A DNA stretch of 54,397 nucleotides, from NCBI GenBank assembly GCA_937124585.1, contig CAKZKT010000148.1:1-54397 (forward strand), read 5' to 3'. Below the pieces are notes generated by a model. That model saw only the letters and a list, made by a program, of their open reading frames with translations. It ran no database searches and was not told the origin of the DNA. Positions 29,733 to 33,350 of the stretch are shown here, in pieces (positions within the stretch are counted from its first letter, which is position 1; the number at the start of each line of letters is the position of its first letter). Source of the DNA: an uncultured Anaerolineae bacterium (GTDB lineage: Bacteria > Chloroflexota > Anaerolineae > CG2-30-64-16). The position numbers and the translations under genes were made by a program.

Positions 29733-29761
29733 TTGACGCGCCTGAAGTGTCACGCGATAAT
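29733..29761 (+). promoter_or_regulatory. promoter of the spermidine-synthase-like / PflX operon
   Basis: TTGACG (29733-29738), 17-base spacer, GATAAT (29756-29761). The predicted start near 29768 gives a leader of about 125 bases that contains both palindrome copies at 29785-29863. Confidence 0.6.
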
Positions 29762-29784: not shown

Positions 29785-29818
29785 ACGTGCCAGGCATCTT
29801 GCAGAGTGCCTGGCACGT
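29785..29818. repeat. 34-nt palindrome, pair 1 copy a
   Basis: 12-bp perfect arms ACGTGCCAGGCA / TGCCTGGCACGT around the 10-base loop TCTTGCAGAG. It is identical to the copies at 29830-29863, 52268-52301 and 52321-52354, and lies in the predicted 5' UTR of the gene at 29893. Confidence 0.95.
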
Positions 29819-29829
29819 TGATGGGTGTA

Positions 29830-29863
29830 ACGTGCCAGGCATCTTGCAGAGTGCCTGGCACGT
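29830..29863. repeat. 34-nt palindrome, pair 1 copy b
   Basis: Identical to copy a, 11 bases downstream of it and in the same orientation (as judged by the asymmetric loop). It ends 29 bases before the start codon of the downstream gene. Confidence 0.95.
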
Positions 29864-29892
29864 TCGGGGATCTATTCGAGAGATCTCGTCCC

Positions 29893-32193
29893 ATGAAGTC
29901 GCTCGTCTGTATTGCCGTGATCGTGATGGGTTTCAGCGGGTTGGTCGCCGAGATCCTCCTGCTCCGGGAGTTGCTGATCGTCTTTGCCGGCAACGAGCTC
30001 AGCATCGGCATCATTCTCGCCAACTGGCTGATTCTCGAGGCTTTCGGCTGCTTCTTTCCCGGCCGTCTGGCCGAGAAGGCGAAGCATCAGATCGAGACGT
30101 TCACGGGCATCTCCGTTCTTTTTTCGCTCTCTCTGGTCCTCGCCGTCTACCTGACTCGCGGCCTGAAGGGGTTCCTCGGCGTTTCGGTCGGGGAAAGCAT
30201 CGGGCTGTTGCCGATTACCTATGCCTCTTTTCTCATCCTGCTGCCGGTGAGCGTGTTTCATGGCGCCTTGTTCACCTTCAGCTGCCGGCTCTATGCCATG
30301 TTCTCCGCGGCCGATGCTTCTTCTGTGGGCCGGGTCTATGTGTATGAGACGATCGGAACGATCATCGGCGGCGTCGTGTGCACCTATCTCCTGGTTCCCC
30401 ATCTCAATACGTTTCAGGCCGCTTTCGGCGTCGCCGTGCTGAATCTGGGCGTCGGCCTGGCGCTGCTCGTCCCACGGCGGAATGGTGGACCGATGCCACG
30501 GGCTGCTCTGGCTTTGACGGGCATGCTGTCCCTCGTCGTCGTCGCCCTGCTGCTCGGCGGTTACGTGGACAGGCTGCATTGGGCTTCGGTCCGGGCGCAG
30601 TGGCGGAATCTCCGGGTCGTCCATTATCAGAACTCCCAATACGGCAACATCTGCGTGGTCGAGAATCAGGGGCAGTATGTGTTCTTCGAGGATGGCATTC
30701 CCGATCTGATTACGCCGGTTCCAGATACCATCTCCGTGGAGGAATTCGTCCATCTGCCGCTGCTGGCCCATCCGCAGCCTGCCGGCGTCTTGATCGTGAG
30801 CGGCGGCGCGGGCGGCGTGATCCACGAGGTGCTCAAACATGGGGTGGTCGAAACCATCGAGTATGCCGAGCTCGATCCGCTGTTGCTGTCCCTGGTGCGC
30901 AAATTTCACACTCCGCTGACGGAATCCGAGCTGACCGCGGCGAGAGTGAAGGTCAGACACCTGGACGGCCGTCTATTGCTGAAAACGACGCCAAACAGCT
31001 ATGATCTGATCTTCATCGGCATCGGGGAACCGTCGAATCTGCAGGCGAACAGATTCTTCACACAGGAATTCTTCGCTCTGGCCAAAAGCAGGCTGAACGC
31101 GGGAGGCATTCTCGTTCTGGCTGCGCCCGGCTCGTTGACTTTGGTGAACGAAGACCTGAGGGACCTGAACAGCTGTATCTTTCACACGCTGAGCAGCGTT
31201 TTTCGGCATGTGCGCGTGCTGCCCGGCGACGGCCGCAACATCTTTCTGGCGTCGGACGCCCCGGCGATTGCGACGATGGAGCGGGCGCAGATCATCCAAA
31301 GATTGCACGAACGGGGCCTCATCGTCGGCGCGATGCTTCCCAGGCACATCGAGAACAAGCTGCATCCTGGCTGGCAGGACTGGTTTGCCCGTTTCATCGC
31401 AGGCGGCAGCCGAGAGATCAATCGGGATTTCCGGCCTCTGGGGCTGTTTTACAGCCTCTCCTATTGGAACACCCTGTTTGCGCCCGAGTTCGGCCGGATT
31501 TTCAGGCAGTTCGAACGAATCAGACTAGAGGGCATCTTTCTCTCGTTCTTGCTTTTTCTGGTGCTTTACTTCGCCTTTCGTTGGCAGAAGCGATCTTTCC
31601 CGCCTGGCATCCCGTTCGCCATCTTCACGACCGGTTTTGCCGGTATGATCTTCGACCTGGTGGTGATTTTCGCATTCCAGTCCGTCTACGGATACGTGTT
31701 TTCGTGGATCGGGCTGCTGGTGGCGGCATTCATGGCCGGGGCGGCCGGCGGGGCAGCGCTCATGACAGGCGTTCTGGGCCGCAGCGCAGAGGATCGGAGG
31801 CGTTTCATCAAAGTCGAATTGGGGATTGTCTGCCTTGCTGTGGGATTGCCTTTCGCGTTGCTTGCACTCCACCCATTGGCCGGCAGCAGGGGAGATTCCC
31901 CGATCTCTGGTATACTGTTCCTGGTCATTTCGTTCGCGTGCGGATTCGCAATCGGCAGCCAGTTTCCCCTGGCCAATAAGCTATACTTGCAGAACAATCC
32001 GAGTTTGACCGGCGCTGCCGGATCGTTGTATGCTTCCGACCTGCTGGGCGGATGGCTGGGAGGCGTTGTGGGCGCCGTCGTGCTCCTGCCCGTGTTCGGA
32101 CTTGTCGGAACCTGCATGGTTGTGGGACTGCTGAAGATCGTCAGTTTGATCGTTGTCGCCAGCCAGACCCTATCTGTGTTCGTGAGGAGGTAG
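29893..32193 (+). CDS. membrane-embedded spermidine-synthase-like protein
   Basis: A 766-residue protein in three parts: about six N-terminal membrane helices (residues 1-225, GFSGLVAEILLLRELLIVF first), a soluble class-I methyltransferase-fold domain of spermidine-synthase type (about 235-500: YQNSQYGNICVVENQGQYVFFEDG, VLIVSGGAGGVIHEVLKH, IEYAELDPLLL, YDLIFIGIGEPSNLQANRFFTQEFF), and about six C-terminal helices (560-766). Fused membrane/spermidine-synthase proteins are widespread but their substrate is unknown. The GGAGGV loop and the ELDP acidic position of the nucleoside-binding site are kept. The gene directly precedes a PflX-like radical SAM gene with a 2-base gap. Confidence 0.85.
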   Translation: MKSLVCIAVIVMGFSGLVAEILLLRELLIVFAGNELSIGIILANWLILEAFGCFFPGRLAEKAKHQIETFTGISVLFSLSLVLAVYLTRGLKGFLGVSVGESIGLLPITYASFLILLPVSVFHGALFTFSCRLYAMFSAADASSVGRVYVYETIGTIIGGVVCTYLLVPHLNTFQAAFGVAVLNLGVGLALLVPRRNGGPMPRAALALTGMLSLVVVALLLGGYVDRLHWASVRAQWRNLRVVHYQNSQYGNICVVENQGQYVFFEDGIPDLITPVPDTISVEEFVHLPLLAHPQPAGVLIVSGGAGGVIHEVLKHGVVETIEYAELDPLLLSLVRKFHTPLTESELTAARVKVRHLDGRLLLKTTPNSYDLIFIGIGEPSNLQANRFFTQEFFALAKSRLNAGGILVLAAPGSLTLVNEDLRDLNSCIFHTLSSVFRHVRVLPGDGRNIFLASDAPAIATMERAQIIQRLHERGLIVGAMLPRHIENKLHPGWQDWFARFIAGGSREINRDFRPLGLFYSLSYWNTLFAPEFGRIFRQFERIRLEGIFLSFLLFLVLYFAFRWQKRSFPPGIPFAIFTTGFAGMIFDLVVIFAFQSVYGYVFSWIGLLVAAFMAGAAGGAALMTGVLGRSAEDRRRFIKVELGIVCLAVGLPFALLALHPLAGSRGDSPISGILFLVISFACGFAIGSQFPLANKLYLQNNPSLTGAAGSLYASDLLGGWLGGVVGAVVLLPVFGLVGTCMVVGLLKIVSLIVVASQTLSVFVRR

Positions 32194-32195
32194 CG

Positions 32196-33350
32196 ATGGA
32201 TGTGCTGCGTATTGACCGGTTTACCCGAAGGAGGTTTTTGGAAAACACGGCCAGGCTGTGCGTCGGGGTTGGCCTCTCTGCCATCGTCACGGGATGTACA
32301 CGGCCCGAGCCCACGCCGTCGCCTTCGCCGCTGCCGTCGCCCAGCCCATCACCGGAGCCCGCAAATGCGACGGCGACGCCCAGCGCTGCTGCCACAGAAT
32401 CCGGCCAGGCCCGCTCTGCTTTTGAGCCGGCGTATTTGCAACTTCGCCGATCGGGCGAACTGAGCAAGCGGGCGGAAGCGCTTTGGGCCATCATGGAGCG
32501 CTGTCAGCTCTGCCCGCGGCAGTGCGGGGTCAATCGTCTCAAGGGCACGAGTGGCTTTTGCCGCACTCCCGGCGCCATGCTCGTCATTTCGGCATATCAT
32601 CCGCACTTCGGCGAAGAGCGACCGCTGGTCGGTCGGGGCGGTTCGGGTACCATCTTTCTGACGCATTGCAATTTGCGCTGTGTCTTCTGTCAGAACTGGA
32701 CGATCAGCCACCTCGGCCGCGGCGCCGAGGCCAGCATCGAGACCTTCGCGGAGATGATGTTGCGGCTCCAGGACGAAGGTTGTCATAACATTAACATCGT
32801 CACGCCGACACATTATTCGCCGCATATCCTGAAAGCCCTCGATGTGGCCGCGGGCAAAGGGCTGCGGCTCCCGATCGTCTACAACACTAGCGGCTGGGAG
32901 CGCCTCGAGATCCTGGCGTATCTCGACGGCGTGGTGGATATCTACCTGCCCGACTTCAAATATTGGGCCGGCGACATGGCGGCGAAGTTCTCGGCTGGGG
33001 CGGAAAACTACCCCGAGGTCACCAAAGCGGCCATCCTGGAGATGCATCGGCAGGTCGGCGTGGCCAGGCCCAATCAGAGGGGCATTCTGGAGCGAGGGCT
33101 GATCATCCGCCATCTGGTGATGCCCAACGGCATCGGCGGATCAGAAAGGGTCATGGAGTGGATTGCCGAGAAGCTGCCCAAAGACACCTACGTCAACATC
33201 ATGGCGCAATATACGCCGGCGCACAAGGCATATGACTATCCGGAGATCTCCCGCCGGATCACCGGCGAGGAGTATCAGAGGGTGATCCGCAGGGCGAAGG
33301 AGGTCGGGCTCACCAATCTCGACATTCAGACGTTCTGGTGGCTGGAATGA
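32196..33350 (+). CDS. PflX-like radical SAM enzyme with Tat/lipoprotein signal
   Basis: A 384-residue protein. The N-terminus has a twin-arginine motif (RRRFL, residues 11-15), a hydrophobic core, then a lipobox VTGC with Cys34 and a Pro/Ser linker (to about residue 75). The enzyme domain has the four-Cys block typical of COG1313 (Cys103, Cys106, Cys110, Cys122) and the radical SAM motif Cys158-x3-Cys162-x2-Cys165 (HCNLRCVFC). Cytoplasmic PflX relatives share the core without the leader. Tat export would suit a pre-folded Fe-S protein. GAGGAGG precedes the start, overlapping the previous gene's end. Function is unknown. Confidence 0.88.
   Translation: MDVLRIDRFTRRRFLENTARLCVGVGLSAIVTGCTRPEPTPSPSPLPSPSPSPEPANATATPSAAATESGQARSAFEPAYLQLRRSGELSKRAEALWAIMERCQLCPRQCGVNRLKGTSGFCRTPGAMLVISAYHPHFGEERPLVGRGGSGTIFLTHCNLRCVFCQNWTISHLGRGAEASIETFAEMMLRLQDEGCHNINIVTPTHYSPHILKALDVAAGKGLRLPIVYNTSGWERLEILAYLDGVVDIYLPDFKYWAGDMAAKFSAGAENYPEVTKAAILEMHRQVGVARPNQRGILERGLIIRHLVMPNGIGGSERVMEWIAEKLPKDTYVNIMAQYTPAHKAYDYPEISRRITGEEYQRVIRRAKEVGLTNLDIQTFWWLE

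Follow-up and report, generated by a model that had tools for sequence, protein, structure and literature searches.

Can a radical S-adenosylmethionine (SAM) enzyme do its work outside the cytoplasm, and if so, from where does it get its SAM? The question is raised by two adjacent genes on a contig from an uncultured Anaerolineae bacterium (Chloroflexota; GenBank assembly GCA_937124585.1, contig CAKZKT010000148.1, positions 1 to 54,397), and this whole stretch of 54,397 nucleotides is called the window below. Radical SAM enzymes are regarded as cytoplasmic, since both SAM and low-potential electrons are made there. Gene A (29893-32193, 766 amino acids) codes for a membrane protein with the fold of the major facilitator superfamily (MFS) and, inserted into it, a SAM-binding domain like that of spermidine synthases; the product of gene B (32196-33350, 384 amino acids) is a PflX-like radical SAM enzyme that is predicted to be exported. 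Both genes are on the + strand, as are all features given below unless otherwise said, and they are separated by two bases (32194-32195), just as an earlier reading of this DNA, here called the original prediction, had it. We consider it probable, with some reserve, that the two genes make up a radical SAM module outside the cytoplasm, where A would deliver or handle SAM. The export of B, the partnership of the two genes, the topology of A and its nucleoside site are all strongly supported by sequence.

The original prediction had read a twin-arginine motif, a lipobox ending at Cys34 and a Pro/Ser-rich tether in B, and all three are present in the protein. The N-terminus, MDVLRIDRFTRRRFLENTARLCVGVGLSAIVTGCTRPEP, has the composition of a twin-arginine translocation (Tat) lipoprotein signal (32196-32297), with TRRRFL at residues 10-15 as the [ST]RRxFL motif, a hydrophobic stretch and the lipobox VTGC, where Cys34 is encoded at 32295-32297; the genome of the window has both TatC and TatA. 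The flexible tether that follows (32298-32420) varies in length and composition between the homologues and is modelled with low confidence by AlphaFold2 (predicted local distance difference test score, pLDDT, <50 at residues 36-52 and 56-74). A twin-arginine motif is found in 30 of the 32 intact B proteins that are paired with A, against a mean of 0.5 and a maximum of 4 when the N-termini are shuffled, and in none of 28 unpaired, cytosolic PflX-like paralogues. A cysteine in the lipobox position is seen in B of Chloroflexota, and most of the others have, as judged by eye, AxA-like sites such as AEA or AQA. The two B proteins that lack the Tat motif (loci L078 and L094) have a hydrophobic segment after positive residues, which is predicted to be a Sec-type anchor with the enzyme outside, and their genomes have SecY and give no match to TatC or TatA, whereas TatC was present in all 13 other carriers tested. 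Two more radical SAM proteins adjoining A-type genes in a Tat-less genome also carry Sec-type signals (L178:4284-5462 and L179:6964-8043). It is thus very probable that B is exported out of the cytoplasm, as originally proposed, and the non-exported N-terminal anchor that was named beforehand as the outcome speaking against it did not appear in the computations. In the same Tat-less genome, L179:6964-12942 and L178:4284-9636 together hold two A-type genes, a membrane ferredoxin-like gene and three exported radical SAM proteins, each of which has a different Sec-type signal.

That B belongs to the radical SAM superfamily is clear from PF04055 (45 bits, cut-off 29.5) and the motif C158xxxC162xxC165 (32667-32690). 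Upstream of this motif is a cluster of cysteines, C103, C106, C110 and C122 (32502-32561), which is possibly a second Fe-S site, and all seven positions, which the original prediction had described as kept, are invariant across 32 homologues. The best fold match to the model of B is the pyruvate formate-lyase activating enzyme 3c8f (Z 19.5 over 225 residues). The cytosolic PflX-like paralogues of the same genomes are 47-54% identical to B and share with it and with the activating enzyme the fold and the CxxxCxxC motif, but they have neither signal nor tether. B was also tried as a member of two named equivalogs and rejected for both, the scores being far below the curated cut-offs: 23.0 bits against 220 for the AmmeMemoRadiSam enzyme (TIGR04337) and 14.6 against 231.75 for the pyruvate formate-lyase activating enzyme (TIGR02493). 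Matches of B to sequences in the PDB were weak and centred on or overlapping the Pro-rich tether, and were set aside.

The pairing of the two genes is not a peculiarity of the window. When an alignment of A was scanned against 84,980 species genomes, 39 loci were found, which according to the record titles belong to Chloroflexota, Desulfobacterota, Gammaproteobacteria, Myxococcota, Aminicenantes, Balneolota, Ignavibacteriota, Aerophobetes, Nitrospirota and Lithacetigenota. Wherever there was sufficient contig (31 loci), B was located directly 3' of A on the same strand, in 26 of the 31 with a gap of 61 bases or less. Seven of the other eight loci end in or just past A, and the eighth, L074, is interrupted by transposase-like genes (L074:2531-3507) inserted about 15 bases after A, at the place where B would be expected. 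Together with the window, a second copy in its own genome and L047, this gives 34 A-B pairs in at least eight phyla. Within 100 related genomes, the top homologues of B (589-679 bits, 72-74% identity) are found at six loci besides that of the window, and each of these has an A gene immediately 5' of B. The trees of A and B agree, with a patristic correlation of 0.68 compared to a permutation maximum of 0.41, and 15 of 29 splits are common to both trees while shuffles give at most 3. The conservation of the neighbourhood, which the original prediction left to be surveyed, is therefore real, and the absence of the pairing in relatives, which would have spoken against it, was not what we saw. No third conserved gene that might point to the substrate was found beside A-B in about 40 loci; most of the clusters left over consisted of shadow frames of the two genes themselves, and the other neighbours of the pairs are unrelated between loci. 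The pair is sporadic within Chloroflexota, since a phylum-wide search with a strict threshold found it in only two of 400 genomes, that of the window and one distant relative. The second pair in the genome of the window (L043:2976-6408, contig C155) has an A that is 64% and a B that is 74% identical, and its radical SAM frame is broken near the C-terminus, which could be either decay or an assembly error; this pair adjoins hydrogenase-like genes. One further member of Chloroflexota (L099, G113:C245) has a lone distant A-type protein with 31% identity and no B within 1.5 kb downstream.

A search of the relatives with the alignment of A also revealed a distant second type of the protein, A' (400-770 bits), which adjoins radical SAM enzymes of the AmmeMemoRadiSam family (TIGR04337, 337-382 bits, cut-off 220). 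These enzymes have a twin-arginine signal in 18 of 18 aligned sequences and a lipobox in many of them. The exported form of the AmmeMemoRadiSam system (TIGR04335, TIGR04336, TIGR04337) thus resembles that of B in having a Tat- or Sec-targeted radical SAM enzyme beside an A-type protein, and the two kinds of enzyme have the same N-terminal cysteine pattern. They differ in that B is far from TIGR04337, as said above, and has no Memo or AMMECR1 at its locus, whereas the AmmeMemoRadiSam enzymes are often accompanied by exported Memo and AMMECR1. The arrangement of an exported enzyme and an A-type gene seen in Chloroflexota is also found in Desulfobacterota (L180, L181), Myxococcota (L182), Aminicenantes (L183) and a Tat-less genome of Lithacetigenota (L178, L179), and in L179 a single A gene is flanked by the genes of two exported enzymes, one of the AmmeMemoRadiSam family and the other a B.

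In the sample of 100 related genomes, we scored full-length A or A' against an exported radical SAM enzyme of either family. All 22 genomes with A or A' have such an enzyme, one has the enzyme alone and 77 have neither (Fisher 3e-21, a value that ignores shared descent). The sole exception, G033, is 79% complete, and two ambiguous genomes, G021 with a fragment at a contig edge and G042 with an in-frame stop, were scored as having neither. The 22 genomes span 14 families, and since several of these families have other members in which both genes are missing, A or A' and the exported enzyme come and go together. A cytosolic AmmeMemoRadiSam enzyme is present in most relatives, with or without A, and since this unexported form is widespread regardless of A, it is the export of the enzyme, and not the enzyme itself, that A is tied to.

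Some A' loci encode more than the pair. Several of them have a fusion of Memo and AMMECR1 with a lipoprotein- or signal-peptide-like start, the genes ResB and CcsB, or a NapH-NapG-like membrane ferredoxin. Examples of the fusion are L122:7912-9465, L131:3705-5387, L181:3342-4850 and L182:7147-8586, and its N-terminal signals suggest a fully exported AmmeMemoRadiSam system. In some of the exported AmmeMemoRadiSam enzymes, often encoded together with ResB (and CcsB), the Tat signal is separated from the core by an additional CxxCH...CHxPH insert (L122:6557-7852, L127, L128, L129, L130, L131, L134, L135, L153, L154 and L155), which could be a covalent c-type heme site and as such a built-in electron route, or some other metal site. 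At L117:3046-10349 there are three Tat-type radical SAM genes, a fused membrane ferredoxin of the NapH-NapG-like type and one A'-type protein, and this ferredoxin is a candidate for an electron donor on the outer side.

If B is outside, the question is on which side of the membrane A has its SAM-binding domain. Mean hydropathy over 36 sequences predicts 14 transmembrane (TM) helices, the seventh and eighth of which flank the spermidine-synthase-like domain. An N-terminal half of six helices, TM1-6 (29896-30477; helices at residues 2-195 in the AlphaFold2 model), is followed by a first extra helix, TM7 (30490-30555), which resembles HA of the 14-TM POT transporters, and a second one, TM8 (31519-31587), leads back to the cytoplasmic side and to the C-terminal half of six helices, TM9-14 (31606-32187). 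Hydropathy and model agree on all these parts, and fold matches also support TM7 and the C-terminal half. The membrane part of the model (pLDDT 84 and predicted template modelling score, pTM, 0.86 for the whole) matches MFS proteins: SV2A (9okg) with Z 22.8 over 347 residues, and the 14-TM POT transporter 6ei3 with Z 21.6 over 386 residues within the range 1-763 of the model. The loops of A contain on average 22.7 Lys+Arg on the inner and 3.5 on the outer side (36 sequences), a pattern that is kept in A' (20.6 and 3.5), and the charged residues R25, E35, E152 and D716 are common to both types. Fold matches and positive-inside pattern together make A a protein of 6+6 MFS helices with both ends in the cytoplasm. 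In MFS proteins both termini are cytoplasmic, and POT transporters carry a further pair of helices between their two halves. Since both ends of A are inside and the insertion is located between two such extra helices, the inserted domain should face the outside, and it is well supported by charge pattern, fold and helix count that it is on the same side as B. The overall membrane fold of A, extra helices included, is that of the 14-TM POT peptide transporters and of MFS proteins more generally, but in the POT transporters the extra helices do not enclose a domain that resembles an enzyme. The original prediction had a SAM-binding fold between two helix bundles, which agrees with a Spermine_synth domain flanked by helices; the predicted position on the outer side is new.

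The inserted domain (residues 223-542, 30559-31518) is matched by both Pfam Spermine_synth and NCBIfam MFS_SpdSyn, and in the model it has the Rossmann-type fold of aminopropyltransferases, the best match being 6bq2 with Z 26.8. The acidic residues that bind the nucleoside, E326, D328 and D358, are present in all 36 A sequences, and because they are invariant the domain can, as far as its residues tell, bind an adenosyl nucleoside such as SAM. The two acids of aminopropyl transfer are on the other hand lost in 36 of 36, that of the GGG(D/E)G motif being replaced by Ala, Val or Gly at position 306 (A306 in the window) and the catalytic Asp of DSTDP by Gly376, which makes it unlikely that A is an aminopropyltransferase. 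A also scores well below the cut-offs of the spermidine synthase equivalogs (97 against 249.6, and 160 against 472). We therefore rejected A as a spermidine synthase, and the binding of decarboxylated SAM, which the original prediction had left as an option, is not supported either. A exceeds the cut-off of the fused MFS/spermidine synthase NF037959 (74.3 against 40), which gives a subfamily name only. What A has in common with NF037959 and the polyamine aminopropyltransferases is the spermidine-synthase fold and the nucleoside site; it differs in that the domain is placed between the MFS halves on two extra helices, predicted to be outside, and has lost the acids of aminopropyl transfer.

The mechanism that we propose is as follows. 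B would fold around its Fe-S cluster or clusters while still in the cytoplasm, cross the membrane by Tat and then, as a lipoprotein, stay tethered to the outside of the cytoplasmic membrane; the enzymes of other phyla might remain attached through a signal that is not cleaved or be set free by signal peptidase I, and in the Tat-less lineage a Sec-type anchor would take over. The two extra helices of A would hold the SAM-binding domain on the same outer face, and A would bring SAM across the membrane, or swap it for the spent products (methionine, 5'-deoxyadenosine or S-adenosylhomocysteine). Its outer domain could then capture SAM and pass it on to B, which would make 5'-deoxyadenosyl radicals and modify a substrate in the envelope. 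The transport and hand-over of SAM, the substrate and the electron source are the parts that we infer. A role of A as SAM transporter is suggested by its SAM-binding domain and the strict co-occurrence with exported radical SAM enzymes, and an outward movement of SAM is the simplest mechanism, because both enzyme families need SAM, both are outside, and their partner combines a transporter fold with a SAM-type domain. The wider claim is that bacteria of many phyla do radical SAM chemistry outside with enzymes of at least two families, PflX-like and AmmeMemoRadiSam-like, which leave the cytoplasm by Tat or Sec, and that an MFS transporter dedicated to them both exports SAM and captures it in its outer spermidine-synthase-like domain; this seems to us an even call.

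There are several points that weigh against such a module. We know of no extracytoplasmic SAM pool or low-potential [4Fe-4S] donor in these organisms, and the A-B pair of the window has no linked gene for an electron carrier; linked genes for electron donors, a NapH-NapG-like ferredoxin and genes for cytochrome c biogenesis, are seen in the sister system only. The 22 genomes with A or A' are related, so that the Fisher value overstates their independence, and L078 and L094 group together as a sister pair, so that the switch of B from Tat to Sec counts only once. Tat-less genomes would need the cluster to be inserted after Sec export, which the proposed mechanism leaves unexplained. The transport of SAM is moreover a guess from the association and the SAM-binding domain, and A could be a methyltransferase or a carrier of substrate. 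A methyltransferase would act outside on the same envelope substrate as B, with an MFS part that supplies its own domain with SAM or is a scaffold. NHMT offers a precedent, being a fungal 7-TM spermidine-synthase-like protein of the endoplasmic reticulum that functions as a SAM-dependent methyltransferase of secreted proteins and needs its membrane part to do so (PMC10349129). NHMT, which acts in the secretory route, is like A in its membrane-bound SAM domain and in the loss of the acid from the GxG(D/E)G motif (PMC10349129), where A has A306, but it has seven helices only, no reported MFS fold and no radical SAM partner, and is eukaryotic. That this type of partner goes with two exported radical SAM families, and essentially only with those, fits better with a shared need for SAM, and the complete MFS fold with four charged residues conserved in A and A' suggests transport, so we regard a methyltransferase as rather unlikely.

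That A carries what the radical reaction consumes or makes, for instance a nucleoside, a lipid precursor or a peptide, while B is exported with its SAM bound or is supplied in another way, is more doubtful still. The solutes of MFS proteins are diverse, and the nearest solved membrane folds are POT peptide transporters and SV2A, but the inserted domain has retained its adenosyl-nucleoside site, SAM loaded into B in advance would suffice for a single turnover, and the two enzyme families would need to have a transported molecule in common. It is very unlikely that the N-terminus of B is a mere membrane anchor with the catalytic domain in the cytoplasm. No tool result favours this; what does is that the cytoplasm is the one compartment where SAM and low-potential electrons are sure to be available. 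The positive N-terminus before the hydrophobic stretch predicts that the C-terminus is outside, the Tat motif goes together with lipobox or AxA-like sites and is replaced by Sec-type signals exactly in the Tat-less genomes, and the Memo-AMMECR1 partners in the sister system carry signal peptides too. We find it hardly credible that A is a membrane spermidine synthase and B a part of polyamine metabolism. The Spermine_synth and MFS_SpdSyn matches and the aminopropyltransferase fold are what such a reading builds on, but the Asp/Glu that binds decarboxylated SAM and the catalytic Asp are both missing, the equivalog scores are low, and B is hardly matched by any named activase.

The families of the components are known, and what would be new is the kind of system, a radical SAM chemistry outside the cytoplasm that is deduced solely from genomes and structures. 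In the open-access literature that we searched, which left subscription journals and preprints outside its scope, there was no prior description of an exported radical SAM enzyme, nor of a module that pairs such an enzyme with a SAM-binding transporter of its own, and it is possible that either has been noticed elsewhere. The conserved pairing in many phyla suggests that some bacteria run, on their outer surface, a demanding chemistry that was supposed to be confined to the cytoplasm. If this is true, SAM is available outside some bacterial cells and there is a route for its export, and very strong reductants reach the envelope. The A and B genes are a concrete set with which to probe the extracytoplasmic SAM pool, its carrier and the target that is modified, and a wholly exported form of AmmeMemoRadiSam, a system without an assigned function, would narrow down its possible substrates.

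Upstream of gene A, the original prediction had placed one promoter and a doubled hairpin leader for both genes. A sigma-70-like site, TTGACG-17-GATAAT, is present at 29733-29761 as a consensus match only. The hairpin is formed by two copies of a 35-base palindromic repeat (29785-29819 and 29830-29864, together 29785-29864, without strand), and as a specific leader or riboregulator of the operon it had to be given up: the repeat, CGTGCCAGGCA...TGCCTGGCACG, has 276 copies with exact arms in the 4.8-Mb genome, frequently in tandem, and since it is dispersed throughout the genome it is uninformative about the A-B operon. Further copies of the repeat are located inside the window at about 11931 and 52270.

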